From Sporosarcina sp. ANT_H38 (GTDB lineage: Bacteria; Bacillota; Bacilli; Bacillales_A; Planococcaceae): a stretch of 64,000 nucleotides of DNA. A model generated the notes under the pieces. The model was not told the origin of the DNA and searched no databases. It saw only the letters and a list, made by a program, of their open reading frames with translations. Shown piece by piece: positions 47,612-59,430 of the stretch. Both the position numbers and the translations under genes were made by a program. The DNA is taken from positions 248,001 through 312,000 of the forward strand of contig NZ_VOBC01000004.1 in the NCBI RefSeq assembly GCF_008369195.1, written 5' to 3'. Position 1 is the stretch's first letter. Each line of letters starts with the position of its first letter.

Positions 47612-47827
47612 CTAAGAAAACGAGGTACCCAATTGGTAATGAGTGTTAGATAAGCTTTCTAGTTGATTTTGAGTTCTTCCCAGTGAACTGCTAACGACAT
47701 CCTGGTAAATTGGGGAATAGATGGACACCATCTTCTCTGTACTTACCACTTTACTTACTTGATTTATATCATTTCCTTTTACAGCGAATTTCCCACCGGT
47801 ACTTACCCAGCCAGCGATTGGAATCAT
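47612..47827 (-). pseudogene. Displaced LXG toxin fragment without a tip (module E)
   Basis: It starts in the pre-toxin domain (IPIAGWVSTGGKFAVKGND) four bases after the SUKH immunity gene. It continues through VSTEKMVSIYSPIYQDVV and LSNTHYQLGT, then diverges and stops. The segment normally following, and any toxin tip, are lost. It shares the GWVSTGGKFAVKGND variant with module C. Confidence 0.8.
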
Positions 47828-47830
47828 CCA

Positions 47831-48259
47831 TTAACAATTAAAATACGCCTTCAAGAAATCAAAAAACGATGACCAAGTTTCCTTTAGCTCTCCTTTTAAA
47901 AGCAGTTCATCTCCACCCTCAAAATTAACTATATAAACTTTATCTGTTACAGTATCCAGCACTAATACAGCATTTGCAGACATTTCACTTAAAACCAGAT
48001 ACTGCTTCGGAAAACCATGTTCTTTTCTAGAAATGAGTGTGTATGTTTCAATATTAATTTCTTCATTTGCTATATCTAATAATTCAAAGGGTACATGCTC
48101 TTCCCAAAAAGGTCCTGCATACTGGATATAAAATTCTTGGAAAGTATCTGATACGTTTACACCTAGCCTTATTAAAGCATCCTGTACTAGATTGCTATCT
48201 TCACGTTTATATATTTCTTCTCCTAGAACTTCATCTAGTCTCACAGGCAAAATACTCAT
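47831..48259 (-). CDS. SMI1/KNR4 (SUKH) family immunity protein
   Basis: 142 residues. SUKH-1 core: FQEFYIQYAGPFWEEHVPFELLDI followed by beta strands QYLVLSEMSANAVLVLDTVTDKVYIVNFEGGDELL and a final helix TWSSFFDFLKAYF. SUKH proteins neutralise polymorphic nuclease toxins. It directly follows the HNH/EndoVII-like tip of module D, so it is its likely antidote. Intact, with GGAGGAAAA site, so it may still be expressed as an orphan immunity gene. Confidence 0.85.
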   Translation of the reverse strand: MSILPVRLDEVLGEEIYKREDSNLVQDALIRLGVNVSDTFQEFYIQYAGPFWEEHVPFELLDIANEEINIETYTLISRKEHGFPKQYLVLSEMSANAVLVLDTVTDKVYIVNFEGGDELLLKGELKETWSSFFDFLKAYFNC

Positions 48260-48313
48260 GTTATTTTCCTCCTATAGTTTCTTCTCCTCTTATTTTCTAA
48301 TAATTAATAGAAT

Positions 48314-49500
48314 CTACTTTTTGAAATGCACCTCTAATTTCTCATCCATTGGATAAAATGGGTTTAACTTTCCTTTATAAGGATGTAGTGGAGCTCTTTT
48401 AGCATTACTTATATTATGGTACCTAGTTGAAGCTTCATATAATGGCCCAACACCTTTTTGTTGTGAATGATGCAACGTTGCATCACTACTTGCATCATCA
48501 AGAATAGGAGCAAGTCCGTATTTCGCAGATGCTTCAGCATTTGTTAACCCGCGACCTTTTTTAGCACCTTTTGTTCGGACCATAGCCCAATTAATATCTC
48601 CACTTTTGATACTCATAGGAATATCCATTTTTGCGGATGGCATATTGAATGTAAGGATATTTGGCGCACCCAATTGATAATGAGTGTTAGATAAAATATC
48701 TAGTTGATTTTGAATTTTGCCTTGTGGACTGTTAACGACATCCTGGTAAATTAGGGAATAGATGGACACCATCTGCTGCTTCACCAAAAACAGGTACAAG
48801 CCCTGCAATATCTAATCCAACCTGTAAATAATCTAGTAATTTGTTTTCTTTGGGTTTGTCGACTTGAACGAACTCTTCTGTTTTATATTCAACTTTGGAA
48901 ACAACTTCATAGAAAACTGTTTTGCCTACAAGATACTCTTTAATGAGTAAACCATTTTATACTCATGATATTTTATATTTCCCTCTACGTTTTCTTCAAT
49001 AGTAGTTACTTTCTTTCCTTCAAGGGTTTGAAAAGTCGCTGCAGTAATCACCGTACCGATTAACTGTTCTTGTTCCTTCAACCATGGATTTAAGTACACT
49101 TTTTGGAAAAGTTCCGTTCTAATTTCACTTCTAAATGAAAGGACATCCCATTGGCTCGGGATGAAGTTTATGTCCTTTACCCCTGCCCGAAACAGTCCCT
49201 CCATATCCGTAAGCCACGTGTTCATCGTCTGCAAATCTTGTTCAATGGGATTCAGTGCGGAAGTCTGTGTTACATCAAATTCATAAAGTTTTAAGATGGT
49301 ATCATCTAAGTGGGCCAGTCCGACAATATCACTTACCTAATCCATGATACTGTTTGCCTCATCCGTCAAACTAGCGGTGAGATGACCAATAAGCGTAAGT
49401 CCCTGTTCTAGCTCGCCCTCTAGGATTTGTTCTACTATGTAACCGGTTGAATCAGATTCGAGTGAATGAAGCGCCGCCTCCATCTGGTGAAGCACTTAGT
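48314..49500 (-). pseudogene. Displaced LXG toxin gene with HNH/EndoVII-like tip (module D)
   Basis: Homology to the complete toxin begins at its residue about 79 (VLHQMEAALHSL) and proceeds through DLQTMNTWLTDMEGLF and LIGTVITAATFQTLEGKK. An in-frame stop (MD*VSD), a small deletion and a frameshift near 48955 break it. A larger deletion removes most of the pre-toxin domain, with AGATGGTGT and AGATGGCGTC at the breakpoints. The last frame (48808-48314) ends in a tip with DATLHHSQQKGVGPLYEASTRYH and APLHPYKGKLNPFYPMD, an HNH/Endonuclease VII-like pattern. The tip itself looks intact. Confidence 0.8.
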
Positions 49501-49559
49501 ACTACCGATTTCATCGGTAGTTTGGTCGCATATTTTAAAGCAGTTGCTTGAAGGGATAA

Positions 49560-49620
49560 TGAAAAGTACCAAGTTATAAACGACTCGGAATCGTTTATAA
49601 CTTGGTACTTTTTTTGTCAT
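49560..49620 (-). terminator. Strong hairpin after the Imm47-like gene
   Basis: 22-bp perfect arms (AAAGTACCAAGTTATAAACG core) around a 7-nt loop at 49562-49612, T-rich on both sides. It lies between module D and the immunity gene of module C. Confidence 0.8.
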
Positions 49621-49651
49621 TGCAGAATGGCAGCAATAAACCTTACTTAGA

Positions 49652-50446
49652 TTAACTATTTAATAAATGTCCGTAAAAGTATTTCCCACCAGATTTCCAA
49701 TCCATTTCTGAAAGATCTTCTACGTAATTAAGCAATTGCTTAAACTTCTCATCATTAATGACTGTATTATACTCAACAGGGCATTTTACCCCACTCCAAA
49801 TTGATAATAGTGTTGGTATTAAATCCCTCCCTAAAGGTCTACTTTGATTCATTGATGCTACAGATGCTTGAATCAGTTCTTTTGCTAAAGCGCCTGGGAA
49901 GGAAGGCTCGCTAAAATAATAATATAAACTATCATCAATACTTTTTAGTAAATTATTATATAACTGACCAATTTCTTCAACCGAGGCATTTTCACCAATA
50001 TCCTTCGTATAATTCAAATATATTTCCAAAGTATTTCTAATCTCTACTTCTATATTTGTATCCTCCCAATCTTCAAGTAGTACTAAAAGAAGAGGTATTA
50101 CATTATAGGACATAGTGTCTATTGCACACGATGCAAAAGTTGAGATAGTGTCTTCAGAGGCATTTGATAAGAACTCAAAATTACCGGTCTCTAACAAATC
50201 TTCATGTGTTAAAATAGAGCAAAATAGCCTCACACCTAGATTCAATACATTTTCTTCTTCGGATGAGTTTAATAATTGAATTAATAAACCTTTTGCAGAA
50301 AAGTCTCCTACCTTTAATAATTCATTTATTACAAGAATACAGTCTTTCTCTGTAGAAATTTTTAGAAGTAATTGTTTTAATTCTTCAATTTCTTCTTTAC
50401 TACTTTTTGAGCCATACCATATACTGTTCCTCAAATTATCAGGCAT
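49652..50446 (-). CDS. Imm47-like immunity protein
   Basis: 264 residues, helical and acidic. It begins RNSIWYGSKSSKEEIEELKQLL and has KGLLIQLLNSSEEENVLNLGVRLFCSILTHEDLL, LLLVLLEDWEDTNIEVEIRNTL and an ending SGGKYFYGHLL. This pattern is what I associate with Imm47-type immunity proteins of polymorphic toxin loci. It follows the toxin-tip fragment of module C by 165 bp. Start ATG after GAAAGGATAT. Confidence 0.7.
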   Translation of the reverse strand: MPDNLRNSIWYGSKSSKEEIEELKQLLLKISTEKDCILVINELLKVGDFSAKGLLIQLLNSSEEENVLNLGVRLFCSILTHEDLLETGNFEFLSNASEDTISTFASCAIDTMSYNVIPLLLVLLEDWEDTNIEVEIRNTLEIYLNYTKDIGENASVEEIGQLYNNLLKSIDDSLYYYFSEPSFPGALAKELIQASVASMNQSRPLGRDLIPTLLSIWSGVKCPVEYNTVINDEKFKQLLNYVEDLSEMDWKSGGKYFYGHLLNS

Positions 50447-50611
50447 ATCCTTTCATTCTCCATTCCACCCAATTCTCTCATTCCTTTACCTTTCTGTGAT
50501 GGTATCACTTTATTCTGGAAAACGATAGCGGCAGTATGTTCAGTATTATTACCAAATACAAAAAAATTTTTCATTTTGATGTATTTTTAGTACTTTTGCA
50601 TTTTCTTTACC

Positions 50612-50902
50612 TTATCCATTTTGATGATAAAATCCAAATTTCTCTCTCTTTATTGTAGATTCACCAGTAAATTTAATATTGAAATTAATATTAACACCAT
50701 CAGACCAAAGACATTGAATATGATGACCTTTTTCTAACTCGTCTTTCCTATTCAAGGCATTATACTCTGCTCTAGCTTTAACTAAATCATCACCTTGCAC
50801 AATAGTAGATTCTGCTGGATATAAATCGTTTCCTTTTACAGCGAATTTCCCACCGGTACTTACCCAGCCAGCAATGGAAATCATTGCTCCATGCGCTTTC
50901 AA
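50612..50902 (-). pseudogene. Displaced LXG toxin tip (module C)
   Basis: A 96-codon frame beginning in the pre-toxin segment (GAMISIAGWVSTGGKFAVKGND). It then switches to a tip, STIVQGDDLVKARAEYNALNRKDELEKGHHIQCLWSDG, ending KREKFGFYHQNG. The tip is not recognised; GHHI recalls His-based nucleases. The LXG domain is absent, so secretion would not be expected. The Imm47-like gene downstream is the presumed partner. Confidence 0.65.
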
Positions 50903-51063
50903 TAATTGCTGGGATTTGCCATTCTTGAAACCATATTCTTTCTACTTGTATTGACTGACGGAACAATACCAATCCGTATCATAATGGAAAATGACAAGAG
51001 TAAAAGTGGATTTTATAGTTTTGAATAGAGGAACCTTACGCTGAAAAGAAGGACATTTTTAAA

Positions 51064-51101
51064 TGCCCATGCATCAAACTTTCATGTTTGATGCATGGGC
51101 A
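51064..51101 (-). terminator. Terminator of the MscS gene
   Basis: TGCCCATGCATCAAAC and its complement form a 16-bp perfect stem around a 6-nt loop, followed by TTTAAAAATG on the minus strand. Confidence 0.8.
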
Positions 51102-51123
51102 ACTGGTTTTTGATATTATATTT

Positions 51124-52380
51124 TTATTCGTCGATGCTGGGTTGATCCTTCATCCAATTAAGATCATTACCCGACGGATTTTGAAATAAGCGAAGTCCAA
51201 ATTGATCCACAACTGCAATTAGATGATCAAACGTATTTGCCTGTACATTTTCATGGACAGCCCATTGCACACTCTTGGTAAAAGCATAAATTTCTAATGG
51301 CAATCCGTGCTCTCCAGGAGCTAGCTGACGAACCATCAACGTCATCTCTTTATGAATGCCCGGATGCTGTTTTAGATATTCAATGATGTATGCTCGGAAG
51401 ACGCCAATATTTGTTAGCGCTCTTCCATTCACCCGATTGTTGCGGTCGACATTATTTTTGCTATTCGATTCCTCTATCTCACGTTCACGCTGAACAATAT
51501 AATCCTTCAAATAATGGATGTGTTTAAATTCCTCAATCATTTCCTTCGTGCAAAATGTAATACTTGTCGTGTCAATATACAAGGCGCGCTTAATACGTCT
51601 ACCGCCAGATTCCTGCATCCCTCTCCAGTTAATAAAAGAATCGGAGATCAACGCATAACTTGGGATCATCGTAATCGTGCGATCAAAGTTCTGCACCATT
51701 ACCGTATTCAAGGAAATATCAATGACATCCCCATCTGCTCCGTACTTCGGCATTTCAATCCAATCGCCAACGCGGACCATATCATTGGCGGATAACTGGA
51801 TCCCCGCAACTAGTCCTAGAATCGAATCTTTAAACACCAACATAAACACTGCCGAAAGAGCACCTATTCCACTAAGTAGAATGACCGGGCTTTCTCCAAT
51901 CAGTGTAGCAATCACCAAAATGGTCCCTACGATAAAGACTACAATTTTGGCAACTTGGATATAGCCTTTTATCGGCTTCGTTTTTGACACTTCGTACGTT
52001 TGATAAATGTCATTACAAACGCTTAATAACCGATTAATTACATTTAATGCGACAATCATAATATACGCGAGCGCTAACGTTTCGATTGCCTTTTGATAAG
52101 TCGGGAAAGACGATGCAAAAGAGTAAATAATAATCGCAGGAACAAAATGAGACATTTGACGGAAAACGTTTCTTCTCGATAAAATACTATCCCACTTGAA
52201 CTTGTGCTTGCTTAAAATATGTGTGATAAAACGGATAATCACCTGTTTAGTAATGAAGTTTGCAATGATACAAAGTACTACGATAAAACTAATCAAAATG
52301 ACAAAGGAAATACTGTCAACCCATGTCGAATCCACGCCGTATCCTAAAAGACGATTTCGGATAAAGATCATTTGTTCCAC
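51124..52380 (-). CDS. Small-conductance mechanosensitive channel (MscS family, YbdG-like)
   Basis: 418 residues. Several N-terminal membrane helices are followed by the pore helix LLSGIGALSAVFMLVFKDSILGLVAGIQLSANDMVRVGDWIEMPKYGADGDVIDISLNTVMVQNFDRTITMIPSYALI, the MscS TM3/beta-domain signature with YbdG-type insert. A long C-terminal cytoplasmic vestibule region follows (IKRALYIDTTSITFCT ... LPLEIYAFTKSVQWAVHE). It releases solutes on osmotic downshock. It lies inside the toxin array between modules B and C, but is otherwise ordinary. Confidence 0.92.
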   Translation of the reverse strand: MEQMIFIRNRLLGYGVDSTWVDSISFVILISFIVVLCIIANFITKQVIIRFITHILSKHKFKWDSILSRRNVFRQMSHFVPAIIIYSFASSFPTYQKAIETLALAYIMIVALNVINRLLSVCNDIYQTYEVSKTKPIKGYIQVAKIVVFIVGTILVIATLIGESPVILLSGIGALSAVFMLVFKDSILGLVAGIQLSANDMVRVGDWIEMPKYGADGDVIDISLNTVMVQNFDRTITMIPSYALISDSFINWRGMQESGGRRIKRALYIDTTSITFCTKEMIEEFKHIHYLKDYIVQREREIEESNSKNNVDRNNRVNGRALTNIGVFRAYIIEYLKQHPGIHKEMTLMVRQLAPGEHGLPLEIYAFTKSVQWAVHENVQANTFDHLIAVVDQFGLRLFQNPSGNDLNWMKDQPSIDE

Positions 52381-52944
52381 TCCTAATCTGTCGTGAATTT
52401 TGTTTATAACGTATTAATATGTAACGCTTTTGTATTGTAATTAAGTATATAAGTATAACAGAATCCATTAACTTTTACCTTCATTCTGTTTTATGATGAC
52501 AGTATTCAATGCATTTCCGCAGTACTCATTTATAAAGTCTTGTTCATCAACAATATTGTTTTAATCATACTATACTTGCCATCATTCTATCTGTTTATGA
52601 GGAAATAGAATAAAGAAGTTCCATGCTAGCACCAAGGTTTTTGTAAAAATGAAGGCATTAGTAGTTTACCCAAATAGCAAAGCTAACATTGAGATCGTGA
52701 AAAAAACTTGTGGTCCTTACAATCCATTGAACCATTAGTAGGTATTGAATAGTGCGACGTGTGCAAGGCTGCTAAAAAAGTGCTCTCTCCATCAAATTGT
52801 GACTGAAAGTTTCCATTGAAACCGCTTCGGCGCTTGCTTATGGCTTCGGCTACCCGGTGTCCAGTTACTGGACACTTGTAAGGCACCTTCGCTGGATCTA
52901 CTTACGTATTTTACTAAGTCACTAAAAAAGTAATGAGGACAACG

Positions 52945-52990
52945 AAAATGAGCCATTCCACGATAAAATCGGGGAATGGCTCATTTTATT
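52945..52990. terminator. Strong hairpin, terminator-like
   Basis: AAAATGAGCCATTCC and GGAATGGCTCATTTT (15 bp, plus inner CG/CG) around a short loop, followed by ATTATTG on the plus strand. No plus-strand gene precedes it. Confidence 0.65.
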
Positions 52991-52996
52991 ATTGTG

Positions 52997-53057
52997 AATT
53001 TCAAGTAACTGTGCACGACGCTATTCCGTCAAATCACTACAATTACATTTTTATAAG
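52997..53057. repeat. Dispersed repeat (TGTGCACGAC type), copy 2
   Basis: Same ordered blocks as 41644-41702, same orientation; similarity may extend weakly to a shared CCCTTTTTTATTTT about 40 bp further on. Confidence 0.6.
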
Positions 53058-53214
53058 AAGTGGATTAGGTATTTACTTCAACATCTATCCCTTTTTTATT
53101 TTCATACAATTGTGCTAATTGTTTGTTATTGTTTGTTGCACATGTACCTTAAAATTAAGTTTATGAATTAATCATTGTTCACTCGACTCGTCTTATCTAA
53201 AACTGAGTTTCTTG

Positions 53215-53760
53215 TTATTCAATAGGACCCATGAATTCAGTGGCAATTAATATATGCTCTATTAGTTTCACTGTTTTTAGATTTTCAGCTTTTTCTGTTC
53301 CACCTAATCCTAATAAAGGGGTGTATCCAAAACACTCGTCATAGTTAGGGGCACTATATTTACTAGTCGCTTCAGGATAAGGCTGCCACATTAATTCATC
53401 GTTCATAAAGTCATTATCTTTTAAATCATCAAAAAAGAATTCAAATCCGGATGAAACAACATTAACATATCCTTTCCTAAAGTTTAACAAATTTACATAC
53501 TTATCTTTCTCCCATACTATAATATCACCCATTGCGGTTGTAAAAATAGGAATCGCTTGCTCATACCTTAGGTAACTTCTCTCTAAAATATCTAAATAAT
53601 CGTCTGGATTAATAACTTTTAAATAGTCATTTACGAAACTACCAAAACCATATTTTCCCCATATTTCTATTAGCTCTTCAGGAAGTTTATCCTTATACTT
53701 CAAAATAACATCTTCATCAACAGTTTCATGTTTAATAAAATCGCTAAATATAGTTTCCAC
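53215..53760 (-). CDS. Tdi1-type immunity protein (GAD-like/DUF1851)
   Basis: 181 residues. The N-terminal GAD-like segment is KYKDKLPEELIEIWGKYGFGSFVNDYLKVINPDDYLDIL; the middle has IPIFTTAMGDIIVWEKDKYVNLLNFRKG; the C-terminal DUF1851 part contains YDECFGYTPLLGLGGTEKAENLKTVKLIEHI. This architecture is that of the Tdi immunity proteins that neutralise Ntox15 (Tde-type) DNases. It lies 18 bp downstream of a toxin with exactly that tip, an independent consistency check. Intact and with GGGGGA site; probably functional as an orphan immunity gene. Confidence 0.88.
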   Translation of the reverse strand: METIFSDFIKHETVDEDVILKYKDKLPEELIEIWGKYGFGSFVNDYLKVINPDDYLDILERSYLRYEQAIPIFTTAMGDIIVWEKDKYVNLLNFRKGYVNVVSSGFEFFFDDLKDNDFMNDELMWQPYPEATSKYSAPNYDECFGYTPLLGLGGTEKAENLKTVKLIEHILIATEFMGPIE

Positions 53761-53778
53761 TTAAAAATCCCCCTTTGA

Positions 53779-55344
53779 TTATTCAGTTAATTTCACATTT
53801 AAATAATTATTCTTTAGCTGCTCAGGTGTCATATTCTTAGCAATTCCCCTTATTTGATCATCAACAACATCAATCCTATATTTCCATTGAGTACCAATGG
53901 AGGAATTTACTCTTTTATCCCCCAAACCTCCAATAATGTTTGCTCTTCCTCCAGCTATTTGATCTGGAATATGGAGTGCTGCTTTTGTTCCCATCCATTC
54001 TGAAGCTTGCTTTGTCGCATCCGCTCTGGAAAGTCCTTGTTTTCGCAGTTCAGTAATTTTGTCTTTAAGCGCTTCTTGTCTAGCCATTTTTTGAGCTGCA
54101 TTTCCTTCTATTGCTCTACCTTCGGCAATATATCTTTCTCTATTTATTAGATATTCGTCAACCGTTAACTCATTCATACCTTTTTCTTGGTCTTTTAATT
54201 GTCTTGTAAACTCTTCTGAATCATGTTTAACATTTCTATTAAAGTTCACTTCAATTTCTTTTATTCTAGGTAAATTATCTAAAATCTTAACATTACCCGT
54301 ACCCTTAGCCCCAACATCCACATTCTTTATTTCAACCTTAACATCGACATCTCCACTTTTTATACTCGTAGGAATATCCGTTTTTGCAAATGGCATATTC
54401 AATGTAAGGGCATTTGGCCTACCCAATTGGTAATGAGTGTTAGATAAGCTATCTAGTTGATTTTGAGTTCTTCCTAGTGGACTGTTGACGACATCTTGGT
54501 AAATTGGGGAATAGATGGACGCCATCTTCTCTGTACTTACCACTTTACTTACTTGATTTAAATCATTTCCTTTTAAGGCTAATTTCCCACCCGTACTTGC
54601 CCAACCAGCAACCGGAATCATCGCTCCAAAAGAGAGGGCCGCATTCAATGTATCCCCTCTCGCCGTATAAATAACACCATTTACGCCATCTGCTGCTTCA
54701 CCAATAACAGGTACCAGCCCTGCAATATCTAATCCAACCTGTAAATAATCTAGTAATTTGTTATCTTTGGGTTTGTCGACTTGAACGATCTCTTCTGTTT
54801 TATATTCAACTTTGGAAACAACTTCATAGAAAACTGTTTGGCCAACAACATACTCTTTAATGAGTAAACCATTTTCATACTCATGATATTTTATATTTCC
54901 CTCTACGTTTTCTTCAATAGTAGTTACTTTTTTTCTTTCAAAGTTTTGGAAAGTGGCCGCAGTAATCATCGTGCCGATCAGCTGTTCTTGTTCCTTTATC
55001 CATAAGTCACTAGGATTTAAGTACACTTTTGGGAACAGTTCCGTTCTAATTTCACTTCTAAACGTCAGAACATTCCATTGGCTCGGGACGAAATTTATGT
55101 CCTTGACCCCTGCTAGGAACAGCCCCTCCATATCCGTAAGCCACGTGTTCATCGTCTGTAAATCTTGTTCAATGGGATTCAGTGCAGAAGTCTGTGTTGC
55201 ATCAAATTCATAAAGTTGCGAGATGGTATCATCACGTTTTCTTTTAGAACGAATGACTCCCTCCTGCACTCCGCTCTCATCTAAGTGGGGTAAGCTGATA
55301 ATATCACTCACCTGATCCATGATACTGTTTGCCTCATCCGTCAA
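53779..55344 (-). pseudogene. N-truncated LXG toxin with Ntox15 DNase tip (module B)
   Basis: A 521-codon frame colinear with the complete toxin from its residue 121 onward: DLQTMNTWLTDMEGLF, LLDYLQVGLDIAGLVPVIGEAADGVNG pre-toxin, VEIKNVDVGAKGTGNV. It then switches to a different tip, KILDNLPRIKEIEVNF ... ALHIPDQIAGGRANIIGG, with H458xxD461, the Ntox15 metal-site motif. The first 120 residues, most of the LXG helix bundle, are missing. The frame begins with TTG without a ribosome binding site where unrelated DNA joins. It is therefore probably silent, though the reading frame is otherwise intact. Confidence 0.8.
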
Positions 55345-55367
55345 ACTTCTATATTAGTCTTGTTTTA

Positions 55368-55406
55368 AATAAAAAACCTTGAAAGGCATTAAGCCAATCA
55401 AGGTTA
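55368..55406 (-). terminator. Terminator at the foreign junction
   Basis: AACCTTG and CAAGGTT flank a long loop, followed by TTTTATTT on the minus strand. It belongs to the short foreign fragment upstream of module B. Confidence 0.6.
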
Positions 55407-55423
55407 AGTAACTATTCTGCAGT

Positions 55424-55508
55424 TACGGTAACGAATGCAGTTTCAACACTTGGAAAGTCATCTAGGAATGCACTGCTTACTAATTCTTTGGTTATAATTT
55501 AATTTTCT
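55424..55508 (-). pseudogene. Orphan C-terminal coding fragment
   Basis: A short minus-strand frame reading TKELVSSAFLDDFPSVETAF and VTVTAE then stop, followed by a terminator. It is not related to the toxins and looks like the end of another gene brought in by recombination between modules A and B. Family not recognised. Confidence 0.4.
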
Positions 55509-55521
55509 TTTATTAAATTTA

Positions 55522-55974
55522 TTATAATAATGAATCTGACAATATCTTTTCAAGCATTTCATCAAATTTTTTGAACTCAACCATTTCTCGCCCTGATGGA
55601 TTATCTAATTCAATATATTGCTCTTTATTTGTATCATATACATACCAACTGATATTACTTTCTCCTAAAAACAAATATTTTTTCTGGTCTTCATTTTCAT
55701 ACCATATCTGATTAAAAGAAATTAATCCATTAATATGTTGGTTCGGTTTTTTTTCTAATAATACTTCATCTATTCCATATAGAATAAACCCATTAAACTC
55801 TAAACCATTTATTGCCTTCAAAACATTATTATATTCACTTGGTAAGTCTTTTTGTAACTCTTCCTTAACATTTTTCATAAATTTAGCTAACTCTACTTCA
55901 CTAGCGCCTGTATTTACTTGCTCGCCGTATAAATTTTTCTCCTCTATTATTTCTTCTAATTTGATATTCCACAT
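55522..55974 (-). CDS. SMI1/KNR4-type immunity protein (YobK-like)
   Basis: 150 residues with a SUKH-like pattern: LPSEYNNVLKAINGLEFNGFILYGIDEVLL, then GLISFNQIWYENEDQKKYLFLGESNISWYVYDTNKEQYIELDNPSG and a final helix FKKFDEMLEKIL. B. subtilis pairs YobK-type SUKH proteins with LXG toxins carrying C-terminal nuclease tips. It lies 12 bp downstream of the complete LXG toxin and is clearly its cognate immunity gene. ATG preceded by GGGGGG. Confidence 0.88.
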   Translation of the reverse strand: MWNIKLEEIIEEKNLYGEQVNTGASEVELAKFMKNVKEELQKDLPSEYNNVLKAINGLEFNGFILYGIDEVLLEKKPNQHINGLISFNQIWYENEDQKKYLFLGESNISWYVYDTNKEQYIELDNPSGREMVEFKKFDEMLEKILSDSLL

Positions 55975-55986
55975 ATTTTAACCCCC

Positions 55987-57855
55987 CTAACGTTTTTCAG
56001 GATACAATTTCCCTTCAGGAAATGGCCAATCAACTATTTGTTTTTCACCTGGAGCTAGTTGCTTTGCAAAGCTATTTTGAAAATTTGTTATAACTTTATG
56101 ATAAGGTTCATTCTGGATTAATATTAGGTTATTAAAACTATTTGTTCCGCTATCATCTATTGGTACTTTATGATGAACTTGCCAACCATCAGGAACTCTA
56201 CCTTTTTGTAATTTTAATAAATCAACATCAGAGAAACCTGCATCTTTTAAAATATTTGTATTTTTTGATAAGTCGCTCAAAAATTGTTTTCTTATCGAAT
56301 TATCAAACTCTTTTCTTAAGCTTTCTAATTCTGTTCTATCTCGTTTTACATATACTATTTCTTTTGTTTTTATTCCTTCTAGAGTAACATTTAACCCTCG
56401 AAGTTTTCCTGCAAAATCGACCTTTGTCCCTCCTTCAATAACATTACCCGTACCCTTAGCCCCAACATCCACATTCTTTATTTCAACCTTAACATCGACA
56501 TCTCCACTTTTGATACTCGTAGGAATATCCGTTTTTGCAAATGGCATATTGAATGCAAGGGCATTTGGCGTACCCAATTGGTAATGTGTGTTAGTTAAGA
56601 AATCTAGTTGATTTTGAGTTTTTCCCAGTGGACTGTTGACGACATCCTGGTAAATTGGGGAATAGATGGACGCCATCTTCTCTGTACTTACCACTTTACT
56701 TACTTGATTTAAATCATTTCCTTTTAAGGCTAATTTCCCACCCGTACTTGCCCAACCAGCAACTGGAATCATCGCTCCAAAAGAAAGGGCCGCATTTAAT
56801 TCATCCCCCCTCGCCGCATAGATAACACCATTTACGCCATCTGCTGCTTCACCAAAAACGGGTACAAGCCCTGCAATATCTAATCCAACCTGAAAATAAT
56901 CTAGTAATTTGTTTTCTTTCGGTTTGTCGACTTTAACGATTTCTTCTACTTTATATTCAACTTTGGAAACAACTTCATAGAAAACTGTTTTGCCTACAAT
57001 ATACTCTTTAATAAGTAAACCATTTTCATACTCATGATATTTTATATTTTCCTCTAGATTTTCTTCAATAGTAGTTACTTTTTTCCCTTCAAGGGTTTGA
57101 AAAGTGGCCGCAGTAATCATCGTGCCGATCAGCTGTTCTTGTTCCTTTATCCATAAGTCGCTAGGATTTAAGTACACTTTTGGGAATAGTTCCGTTCTAA
57201 TTTCACTTCTAAACGTCAGAACATTCCATTGGCTCTGGACGAAGGTTATGTCCTTGACCCCTGCTTGGAACAGTCCCTCCATATCCGTAAGCCACGTGTT
57301 CATCGTCTGCAAATCTTGTTCAAAGGGATTCAGTGCGGAAGTCTGGGTTGCGTCAAATTCATAAAGTTGTGAGATGGTTTCATCACGTTTTCTCTTTGAA
57401 CGAATGACTCCCTCCTGCACTCCGCTATCATCTAAGTGAGGCAGTCCGACAATATCACTCACCTGATCCATGATACTGTTTGCCTCATCCGTCAAACTAG
57501 TGGTGAGATGACCAATTAGCGTAAGTCCCTGTTCCAGTTCTCCTTCTAGGAATTGTTCTAGTATGAAGCCTGCCGAATCTGGTTCGAGTGAATGAAGTGC
57601 TGCCTCCATCTGTTGAAGCACTTGTTTGAATTGTTCTGAAAACAACTGAAAATAATGAAGAAATGGTAAATGACATTCCTGGTAAAAGGAACGAATGGCA
57701 TTACCTCCCGCTCCTTTAAATTGTTCCTCCATCTGAACTAGACCCTCCACTGTATGGTGGATCGCTTCCATCTCACCGCTTAGCCTGTCCAACATAGTAA
57801 TGTTGCGCTGCAGCCCATCCTGAAATAAATCTACATCTACTATTTTCATAGGCAT
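55987..57855 (-). CDS. Complete LXG-domain polymorphic toxin with HNH tip (module A)
   Basis: 622 residues, no signal peptide, as for type VIIb-secreted effectors. LXG helical domain about residues 1-205 (FKGAGGNAIRSFYQE). Pre-toxin TG domain about 318-380 (GLVPVFGEAADGVNGVIY; GAMIPVAGWASTGGKLALKGND). Conserved linker to about 472 (VEIKNVDVGAKGTGNV). Nuclease tip 473-622 with WQVHHKVPIDDSGTNSFNNLILIQNEPYHK, an HNH motif with H561/H562, N575-576 and H586. It should be delivered to competing Gram-positive cells and degrade nucleic acid. Start is ATG 57855 or, with better spacing from GAGG, ATG 57849. No small LXG partner genes or secretion genes lie in the window. Confidence 0.92.
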   Translation of the reverse strand: MPMKIVDVDLFQDGLQRNITMLDRLSGEMEAIHHTVEGLVQMEEQFKGAGGNAIRSFYQECHLPFLHYFQLFSEQFKQVLQQMEAALHSLEPDSAGFILEQFLEGELEQGLTLIGHLTTSLTDEANSIMDQVSDIVGLPHLDDSGVQEGVIRSKRKRDETISQLYEFDATQTSALNPFEQDLQTMNTWLTDMEGLFQAGVKDITFVQSQWNVLTFRSEIRTELFPKVYLNPSDLWIKEQEQLIGTMITAATFQTLEGKKVTTIEENLEENIKYHEYENGLLIKEYIVGKTVFYEVVSKVEYKVEEIVKVDKPKENKLLDYFQVGLDIAGLVPVFGEAADGVNGVIYAARGDELNAALSFGAMIPVAGWASTGGKLALKGNDLNQVSKVVSTEKMASIYSPIYQDVVNSPLGKTQNQLDFLTNTHYQLGTPNALAFNMPFAKTDIPTSIKSGDVDVKVEIKNVDVGAKGTGNVIEGGTKVDFAGKLRGLNVTLEGIKTKEIVYVKRDRTELESLRKEFDNSIRKQFLSDLSKNTNILKDAGFSDVDLLKLQKGRVPDGWQVHHKVPIDDSGTNSFNNLILIQNEPYHKVITNFQNSFAKQLAPGEKQIVDWPFPEGKLYPEKR

Positions 57856-57929
57856 TGCCTCATCAATCGTTTAAAAATAGCCACTTCACAATATTCTTTA
57901 GTATACAATGATACCCTACAGGTGAACAT
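57846..57929 (-). CDS. 27-codon leader ORF overlapping the LXG toxin start
   Basis: ATG at 57929 follows AGGAGGAG and encodes MFTCRVSLYTKEY... to a stop that overlaps the toxin's second ATG as ATGA. The toxin start itself has a less ideal site, so coupling is plausible. Not similar to known LXG partner proteins. May be chance. Confidence 0.4.
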   Translation of the reverse strand: MFTCRVSLYTKEYCEVAIFKRLMRQCL

Positions 57930-58473
57930 TCTTCTCCTCCTCTACTACACTATCAATAGTTATAATATTTCATTTATCCACTAGAATGTAAAGGCAGAAG
58001 TTAGAATATTCCTGAAAATAACGAATTAATATATATAAAATAGCACATGTCTCGTGCTAATGAGGTTCTGTTTTAAGTTTTGATACAGCTTCAAATACAG
58101 GAGGTAAGGTGTACTTCATAACAGCCTAAATTAGTTTTTCTTCCATCACATAGTCATTTTAAAATAGATGATGTCCATCCATTCTTCCGGATATGATTAA
58201 TTAATGTTGACAAAGTGAAACAGCATTACCTTCTGATCAGTAAACTTGCTACATTGAGTTCGTTAACGAAAGCACTATTTCAGCTTCGTCTATATCTGAG
58301 AAGTTAATTTCGCAGAACAAAGAGTACCATTAACTGGTTTGGATAAAAGGGAAGATGGATGATTGATTGACTGGCACCTCCCCCCCACACTTATTTCGAC
58401 AACATAATATGAAGTTCTGTGCAAGAAACAACAATGAAGGCTTCTTTTCATACTATAGATTTGAGGTGAAAAT
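57930..58473. other. Divergent intergenic region between toxin operon and cwlJ
   Basis: On the minus strand TTTACA with an AT-rich TATTAT about 19 bp further is a weak promoter candidate for the toxin. On the plus strand CATACTAT (58449-58456) resembles a SigE -10, but it is too close to the cwlJ ribosome binding site to be convincing. No gene seen. Confidence 0.35.
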
Positions 58474-58914
58474 ATGCCAAGAGTTAAATACCGGGATGCA
58501 GACATTGATTTAATGGCAAGGATGATGAGAGCAGAAGCCGAGGGTGAAGGAAAGCAAGGGATGTTATATGTTGGCAATGTAATTGTTAATCGTGCTGTAG
58601 CAGATTGTTTAGATTTTAACGATGTAAGAACAATTGAAGACGTCATTTTTCAGATACAAGGAGGAAATTATTCTTTTGAAGCTGTTCAAAAAGGGAATTT
58701 ATTTTACCAAAGAGCAAGATCTTCTGAAAAAAGATTAGCAAAACAAACTTTAGATAATTGGAGACAACATCCAGCGAAATTCGCCCTTTGGTATTTTAAT
58801 CCATACGCCCCTTGCCCTCCAACATGGTACGGTCAACCTTTTACTGGTCAATTTAAAGATCATTGTTTTTATGAACCAGCAGCCGGGACATGTGAAAGTG
58901 TTTATAACGGTTAG
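58474..58914 (+). CDS. cwlJ: Spore cortex-lytic cell wall hydrolase CwlJ
   Basis: 146 residues, the size of CwlJ, with a single SleB/CwlJ hydrolase-2 domain: DIDLMARMMRAEAEGEGKQGMLYVGNVIVNRAVADC (catalytic Glu region), TIEDVIFQIQGGNYSFEAVQKG, then WYFNPYAPCPPTWYGQPFTGQFKDHCFYEP. CwlJ degrades spore cortex during germination and usually acts with GerQ, not seen here. Good GAGGTG site. Monocistronic with a strong terminator. Confidence 0.92.
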   Translation: MPRVKYRDADIDLMARMMRAEAEGEGKQGMLYVGNVIVNRAVADCLDFNDVRTIEDVIFQIQGGNYSFEAVQKGNLFYQRARSSEKRLAKQTLDNWRQHPAKFALWYFNPYAPCPPTWYGQPFTGQFKDHCFYEPAAGTCESVYNG

Positions 58915-58963
58915 GTTCTTAAGGAGCTATTATTTATTGTAGTAAATCACTAGAATGTCGACA

Positions 58964-59013
58964 ATAAAAGAAGACGAATTCATCTATAAGTAGATGAATT
59001 CGTCTTCTTTTTT
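58964..59013. terminator. Strong bidirectional terminator
   Basis: AGAAGACGAATTCATCTA and its complement (18 bp or more) around a 4-nt loop, T-rich on both strands. It ends cwlJ and the convergent ssrA transcript. Confidence 0.92.
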
Positions 59014-59072
59014 TATATCTTGTTACCATAATGTAATCACACATCGCTTAAAGGGTGATGTGATAACATAAA

Positions 59073-59430
59073 TGGAGACGGCGGGAGTCGAACCCGCGTC
59101 CAGAGGCTCTAACACTTAAGCATCTACGCGTGTAGATTGTCTATTAGGATTCGCGTGGCATTATGCCGGCAATCAGGGCGTCATGTACGCTATCTTGGAA
59201 GTCTCTTCCGACTGCCTCAAGAGGCAACAGTCGTCGTATCCCACTAAAGGTTGAGCCTTACAAATGCCACATGGGCGATGGAAATGCAAGGCAGATTCAA
59301 CAGCTTACGCTGCGAATGCTAGGTTGTTGTTAGTTTTGCCTGTTATTATAAGGTGTCGTTTCTGACGGAGCCGAACCCTCCGACGCGCAACTCAAGCTCA
59401 GTCTACCCCTGTCGAATCCGTAACGTCCCC
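59073..59430 (-). ncRNA. ssrA: tmRNA
   Basis: 5' end GGGGACGTTACGGATTCGAC and 3' end GGTTCGACTCCCGCCGTCTCCA form the tRNA-like acceptor and T-arm (GGGGACG with CGTCTCC). The CCA is not encoded. The tag reading frame follows GGC AAA ACT AAC and encodes GKTNNNLAFAA before TAA, i.e. tag (A)GKTNNNLAFAA. It rescues stalled ribosomes with SmpB, encoded immediately upstream. Confidence 0.96.

Follow-up and report, generated by a model that had tools for sequence, protein, structure and literature searches.

An LXG toxin locus in Sporosarcina with displaced tip and immunity modules, and a 15-bp sequence at the probable boundary of tip exchange

The stretch of DNA analysed here, hereafter the window, comprises 64,000 nucleotides (nt) of the genome of Sporosarcina sp. 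ANT_H38, and carries one complete gene for an LXG toxin (module A) followed on the same strand by four displaced modules, B to E, that repeat parts of its linker. Coordinates are positions in this window, and every feature of the modules lies on the minus strand. This layout was confirmed close to the coordinates given in an original prediction, which had described a complete toxin followed by four truncated modules repeating its linker, and all of these were found. The last 15 bp of the linker segment, TAAGGGTACGGGTAA, which we call the seam, recur in frame in other genomes where unrelated toxin backbones join unrelated C-terminal tips, and the trail of modules and the seam are the subject of this report.

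Module A (55987-57855) encodes a protein of 622 amino acids with an LXG domain (57247-57855; PF04740, E=8.3e-61, profile positions 1-200), a linker (56459-57246) and an HNH tip (55990-56443), the HNH match of 20.9 bits being marginally below the cut-off of 21.4. The seam lies at 56444-56458, in frame as (x)KGTGN, where the backbone meets the tip. Behind the tip follow an immunity gene of the SUKH/YrhA family (55522-55974) and, 3' of this gene, a terminator-like hairpin (55370-55405) that is common to the ends of other toxin modules. A variable C-terminal tip with an immunity gene downstream is a feature of LXG polymorphic toxins, and module A has both. From what is known of the family, the locus would serve secretion, killing and protection. 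The genome contains a YukC/EssB gene (E=4e-106), the sole component of the type VIIb secretion system (T7SSb) that was sought, and PF04740 matches at eight places, three of which are full-length domains. The region 57856-58289, the place for a small helical partner of the LXG toxin, contains no minus-strand open reading frame (ORF) of at least 60 amino acids.

Module B (53779-55347, with an open frame at 53779-55344) consists of the LXG domain from residue 119/120 onward, the linker, and an Ntox15 tip (53782-54288; E=1.5e-41). Its homology with A starts at 55347 and amounts to 94.0% DNA identity over 1060 bp. The seam is present as an exact copy at 54293-54307, and a search of the window allowing two mismatches returned the copies in A and B as the only matches, against 0.12 expected. 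Immunity gene B (53215-53760) matches the GAD-like/Tdi1 C-terminal profile. Module C (50476-50902, open frame 50612-50902) retains 25 linker residues (77 bp, 83.1% identical to A) and a broken tip, and is followed by an Imm47 immunity gene (49652-50446; E=7.5e-68). Module D (about 48264-49497) consists of a broken LXG/linker remnant, which aligns with A in two pieces (790 bp, 84.3% identity; 182 bp, 88.5% identity), and a broken LHH-type tip, of which 48317-48592 is open; the LHH match of 17.6 bits is below the cut-off of 23.3. It has an immunity gene of the SUKH family (47831-48259), and right behind the stop codon of this gene begins module E (47625-47828), a linker remnant without a tip that is 90.7% identical to A over 204 bp. 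These repeats are far above chance (300 nt in four copies), and promoter-like sites were at chance level (41 versus 40.2 expected).

Several other features lie in or near the locus. Between B and C is a gene for an MscS-type channel (51124-52380, minus strand), which the text of the original prediction did not mention and which probably lies outside the toxin system. Since its neighbours vary among the seven relatives that were read, an empty island site could not be defined. Two long terminator-like hairpins are located between immunity gene C and module D (49564-49610) and after the MscS gene (51064-51101). A transfer-messenger RNA (tmRNA) gene (59073-59430) is close to the locus, separated from it by a single gene, for a cell wall hydrolase, and the ORF list for this region (58474-59430) contains no recognised integrase. 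The same genome carries a second LXG locus and trail (L031, C1:1975195-1981263), with a DUF5344 partner gene preceding the LXG gene; it contains a complete LXG gene with an HHH tip, plus a truncated LXG module with a different HHH tip.

When intact tips of relatives were aligned to the window, tips C and D turned out to have lost their N-terminal parts and to contain stop codons and frame changes, and the linker of D has stops, a frameshift and a deletion. Tip B is the sole unbroken tip in the trail, its frame being open to the end. Because tips C and D are broken and the D linker is interrupted, B is the only intact toxin without an export domain, and judging from their reading frames C, D and E are dead as toxins, so that besides A the trail consists of one intact export-less toxin and three remnants. 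An orphan module lacks the export domain, has a stretch in common with the full gene, and comes with its own immunity gene; all of this applies to B, and to C and D with broken tips, and E has neither a tip nor an immunity gene of its own. The absence of a complete LXG export domain from the truncated modules, as originally predicted, was thus found, but as toxins only B is intact.

The immunity genes give a different picture. All four (A to D) are open, and their ratios of nonsynonymous to synonymous substitutions (dN/dS) relative to homologues in related genomes were mostly between 0.11 and 0.31, i.e., mostly purifying change, although close pairs have few changes and dS is near saturation for immunity gene C. 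These values show constraint on the immunity genes, without dating it to the orphan period. The claim that the immunity genes are intact therefore held. A further idea, that the strain could swap tips while keeping immunity, held for the second half: immunity genes are kept open, but with C, D and E dead as toxins the trail is a poor store of tips. It would be mainly an immunity archive plus one usable tip, and as old immunity genes remain open while old tips decay, the trail may mainly protect against kin that still bear those tips.

To see on which genes these tips occur elsewhere, 200 genomes of the family were searched, the own genome included, and tips A, B, C and D were found in 7, 9, 3 and 11 of them, respectively. 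All four occur on LXG proteins elsewhere, a check that had been proposed beforehand, and B and C do so on the same backbone. Tip B is on this backbone (87%) in Sporosarcina sp. FSL K6-6792 (P0063), where the tip is Ntox15 and the LXG match starts at profile position 19, and it is also found on other LXG backbones, e.g., in P0002. Tip C with Imm47 is on a complete LXG gene with the same backbone in G100 (75-79% identical to A), and on the same backbone in P0158, P0159 and P0165. Tip C had been described as unrecognised; the Imm47 assignment next to it was borne out, but the tip does have relatives on complete LXG genes. Tip D sits on a complete LXG gene in G160, with tip and immunity gene 88 and 90% identical. 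Tip A is present on complete LXG genes in G202, Bacillus marasmi and P0123/P0124, and on a more distant LXG gene in G110. In B. marasmi, tip and immunity gene A are 88% and 83% identical, on an LXG gene that is only ~20% identical, and a Psychrobacillus (P0122) combines the same backbone with tip A at 81% in a protein that begins at residue 77, without the first 76 residues. The locus has the orphan toxin/immunity architecture that was predicted, with the same tips on LXG proteins elsewhere. The backbone itself recurs in Sporosarcina sp. E16_8, a metagenome-assembled genome of Sporosarcina psychrophila, and Filibacter tadaridae, among other records. In F. tadaridae it is 89-90% identical to residue 468 and then continues into a WHH/Colicin-DNase tip, at another site, behind groEL. 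Related LXG genes behind groES-groEL, and not beside the tmRNA gene, were seen in F. tadaridae, G011 and G246 (L080/L143, L034 and L141), indicating that the backbone changes site.

Had a single gene been duplicated in tandem and its copies then decayed where they lie, with no exchange, this would account for the paralogous linkers and for the decay of most modules. However, the tip/immunity pairs of A to D are unrelated to one another, and each pair occurs on other genes in other places, so that we regard this explanation as very improbable.

The point at which homology ends was then located by comparing 146 proteins with A. Of these, 47 align across the linker, and 24 of these alignments end at residues 454-481; the remaining ones continue by way of a common tip or a weak extension. 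At this point a KGTGN or KGTGK peptide is found with unrelated backbones and tips, mostly encoded by the 14-mer AAGGGTACGGGTAA. The original prediction had proposed that tips are swapped by recombination in the common linker segment. Homology between genes with the same backbone indeed ends there, but only the last 15 bp of the segment, the seam, are common beyond this backbone. Searched in 261 genomes of the order, every one of them listed under a single family, the 14-mer gave 72 exact matches in 39 genomes, whereas the backwards pattern gave 15. We read 70 distinct contexts, 53 of which have the geometry of a tip junction and 10 of which are stand-alone tips, with an open frame that begins at most 20 codons before the seam. 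Of the first 30 open frames, one was too short for a Pfam search; the other 29 included 8 with PT-TG and 3 with LXG, and tips of the colicin-type DNase, RNase A, EndoU, AHH, WHH and deaminase types were each seen once or twice. Tip B is preceded by KGTG, at a distance of up to 12 residues, in 55 of 120 proteins and in 21 of 54 backbone clusters, whereas 11 permuted peptides each gave at most 12.

A short peptide at a junction may also be a protein feature. In that case the seam would be a hinge (KGTGN) for folding or release of the tip, its codons would reflect chance or bias, and ordinary homologous recombination could occur anywhere in the linker. Modules A and B share 1060 bp at 94%, which is sufficient for ordinary recombination, and Neisseria MafB has junction peptides for which no DNA role is known (PMC4287609). 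The DNA argues otherwise. From 97 distinct junctions, thinned to 88 with less than 80% identity to each other, the base before the Lys codon (base -1), which is the wobble base of a varying residue and was in none of the search patterns, is T in 86 of 88, against 39.9 expected from the residues (binomial test against the overall third-base T rate, p=2.7e-32, a guide only since the sequences are partly related). These junctions represent 36 left and 59 right flank clusters in 79 combinations. Among junctions selected by their peptide alone, 28 of 29 have T at base -1, and the exception sits inside a tip. With one representative per flank cluster, information is at most 0.62 bits left of base -1 and at most 0.56 bits right of base 13, except at the wobble base +17 (1.18 bits), where 50 of 59 right-flank representatives have T; conservation may thus extend past the 15 bp. 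Peptide residue 4 varies (G, D, V) while the wobble bases remain constant. Among the KGT sites of the same loci, AAGGGTACG is found in 20 of the 38 located 85-180 codons before a stop, versus 3 of the 37 others, so KGT codons elsewhere in these loci are without the bias. A second control, AAA-coded KGTG[NK], matched in all 261 genomes; of 30 loci read among the matches listed, 8 fit the junction geometry and none was toxin-like, the latter judged by eye only. As most of these 30 loci come from genera without a seam match, this control is weaker than the one within the loci. Finally, pairs with the same tip on unrelated backbones have nothing in common left of the seam. Taken together, we consider a mere protein hinge unlikely.

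The breakpoints themselves were mapped by comparing 78 junctions pairwise, which gave 67 pairs with sequence in common on the left only, 14 on the right only, and 18 on both sides. In left-only pairs identity drops to ~0.3 directly past the seam, and in right-only pairs it is ~0.3 up to base -2, 0.93 at base -1, and ~0.86 rightward. For 10 selected pairs with the same tip, the alignment starts at -1 in six, at -2 in two, and at -16/-13 in one, and in the tenth, whose backbones are related, it starts at about -200. Some pairs are near-identical right of the seam (L034 and L168 across all 60 bases compared), so that some exchanges look recent. The seam is therefore a fixed boundary of exchange, a short conserved DNA site at the exact breakpoint, as is characteristic of site-specific cassettes.

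At the right end, a terminator-like hairpin close to AACCTTGATTGGCTNNNTGCCTTTCAAGGTTTTT recurs behind immunity genes, in the window behind immunity gene A. With both strands counted as one, 193 toxin loci (1043.5 kb including overlaps) have it at 44 distinct places. It was absent from 20 MscS loci and 30 other bacterial loci (174.6 kb), from 1165 kb of viral DNA, and from 52 kb of the window outside the locus; 22 loci fetched from the class by means of the seam (L178-L199) contain four. It precedes the seam in 13 of 82 cases, and in 3 of 10 same-tip pairs homology ends in or just past it. As some modules begin at the seam and part of them end in the common hairpin, a full cassette would consist of seam, tip, immunity gene and hairpin.

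Such an arrangement could point to a dedicated recombinase or nuclease for which the seam is the site and which inserts seam-tip-immunity cassettes. Sharp left breakpoints, stand-alone cassettes that begin at the seam, the recurring hairpin at the right end, and the use of the seam by LXG and non-LXG toxins alike are in line with this. On the other hand, the 15 bp have no clear flanking inverted arms, and the trails that were read contain only single, differing enzymes: a phage-integrase fragment 3' of a broken LXG gene in G002 (L033, 7526-7999) and a resolvase piece in a trail in G160 (L145, 13134-13478). A dedicated enzyme therefore seems to us rather doubtful. The boldest version holds that TAAGGGTACGGGTAA is a true recombination site, at which an enzyme inserts mobile seam-tip-immunity-hairpin cassettes from a pool behind any backbone that bears the site, with the trail as its footprint, family-wide and across delivery systems (LXG, and PT-TG beside DUF4280). 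We put this forward only tentatively.

The reading that we prefer, and consider likely, is that of an LXG toxin locus with repeated replacement of tip and immunity gene, displacement of old pairs downstream, and a fixed exchange boundary at the seam. In this polymorphic-toxin gene of the T7SSb, every replacement would shift the former tip/immunity pair downstream, B being recent and intact and C to E older and decayed. The order of the modules, their homologies and decay, and the tips on LXG genes elsewhere can, like the boundary, be read from the DNA itself. We read the seam as the probable exchange seam of tip/immunity cassettes, at which tips of unrelated toxins, LXG and non-LXG, join unrelated backbones and at which some orphan modules begin. 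Crossover may take place in or next to the seam, or in the longer linker homology where partners have one backbone, as with A and B; the module order, the long linker that A and B have in common, and the remnant of LXG with which B begins indicate that linker homology is usable within one backbone. Exchange between unrelated backbones must use the seam, because nothing else is common at the left, and this could proceed by joining at short homology, perhaps aided by a longer homologous stretch on the opposite side, or by a recombinase.

A number of observations weigh against this reading. Within the window the seam is kept in A and B alone, C and D having lost that part. The seam is not universal, since only 2 of the 27 backbone representatives have KGTG in front of tip A. 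Seven of the 70 contexts are untidy: one is RNase R-like (L264), two have a frame of 6 codons (L155, L248), and in the other four the frame is cut or broken (L141, L153, L258, L262). A search of 398 genomes of the class for the seam gave 31 matches, spread over 24 genomes, with 7 of these matches in the own family, and outside the family the signal is weak, with 9 or 10 of 24 matches resembling toxin junctions, six being one rho-like gene, and eight lying in other or short frames, all by eye. Only 25 of 83 seams are followed by the hairpin within 1450 nt, the distances being 624-1436 nt. Immunity gene D has dN/dS values of 0.62 and 0.73 against two close relatives, based on few changes. No recombinase gene recurs among the trails read, a distant gene not having been sought, which counts against a dedicated enzyme as well. 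A viral origin of the seam was also considered and rejected, as viral contigs hold 46 stretches against 87 for the backwards control, i.e., there is no enrichment.

Comparable trails exist in other genomes. When 68 genomes of the genus were searched for the linker, 15 matched, and with a trail defined as at least two linker pieces at one place, reading, at least in part, identified trails in 9 of the 68 (G000, G011, G026, G027, G231, G246, G251, G252 and G254). G006 and G014 were not counted because their weak matches are mostly in far longer or unrelated frames. In G251 one module carries an open tip D, and G231 has 8 linker matches across 23 kb. In G157 (contig C1; L146, L147), tips B and D occur in a trail of short non-LXG toxins with a PT-TG domain, which lies near a DUF4280 gene and another gene that matches phage GPD below the threshold. 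Since this trail and the LXG trail have tips B and D in common, tip/immunity pairs cross delivery systems. The trails also bear on the possibility that the locus is an assembly artefact of a repeated gene, which could be suspected in a draft of 19 contigs. The copies diverge from A by 6-17% and their tips are unique, and similar trails are present in genomes listed as one contig (G251, G231, G254), making an artefact extremely improbable. An artefact, or a duplication with pseudogenised immunity genes, had been named as what would speak against the original prediction, and copies of this divergence with open immunity genes speak against both.

How tips move between delivery proteins that have no sequence in common is an open question in polymorphic-toxin biology, and a 15-bp seam that is conserved even at a base free of coding constraint provides a concrete, testable object. 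It may also serve as a handle for finding toxins, as one 14-mer in one family marks mostly tip junctions, many without a known domain. The trail itself would show a strain shedding toxin tips while keeping the antidotes. In the literature searched we found no report of a nucleotide seam common to unrelated toxins, and KGTGN or pieces of the seam appeared only in unrelated papers.

Orphan tip/immunity modules of CdiA (VENN) and Rhs, which are Gram-negative systems, can recombine with the full gene. Other families have junction peptides too, as in MafB and with VENN. The latter is named PT-VENN by Zhang 2012 (PMC3482391). Although the original prediction was right that the family here is LXG, this is not new: orphan LXG modules have been described in Enterococcus faecalis OG1RF (PMC7790226), and truncated LXG toxins and fragments in several species (PMC10434224). 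Published work already covers orphan LXG modules, the replacement of cassettes and the retention of immunity strings, and the trail is of a known kind. As here, the truncated LXG toxins of E. faecalis are homologous to the full gene over a 5' stretch, come with immunity genes of their own, and have full-length counterparts in other bacteria; unlike there, four further modules in graded decay are present here, and the accessible text names no common junction sequence (PMC7790226). Zhang 2012 described that one 3' recombination swaps tip and immunity gene and that immunity strings are remnants of replacement, LXG toxins included, but in the accessible part no nucleotide seam common to unrelated toxins (PMC3482391). 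In the type VI secretion system modules of Vibrio cholerae, new pairs likewise push out old effectors, and the old immunity genes remain and perhaps protect against kin, although that is another secretion system, for which recombination without specific integration sites is reported instead of a fixed seam (PMC5361080). The esaG and tsaI arrays of Staphylococcus aureus are type VII secretion system immunity arrays shaped by recombination at homology blocks, with a 3' toxin fragment (tspA) downstream, as in our trail, but they consist of paralogous copies of one immunity family and not of unrelated tip/immunity pairs (PMC9484751). Neisseria MafB, finally, has silent C-terminal cassettes with immunity genes downstream and a conserved peptide at the transition from constant to variable sequence; its motifs are class-specific and confined to one genus (PMC4287609), whereas here one DNA sequence is found across unrelated backbones and delivery systems.

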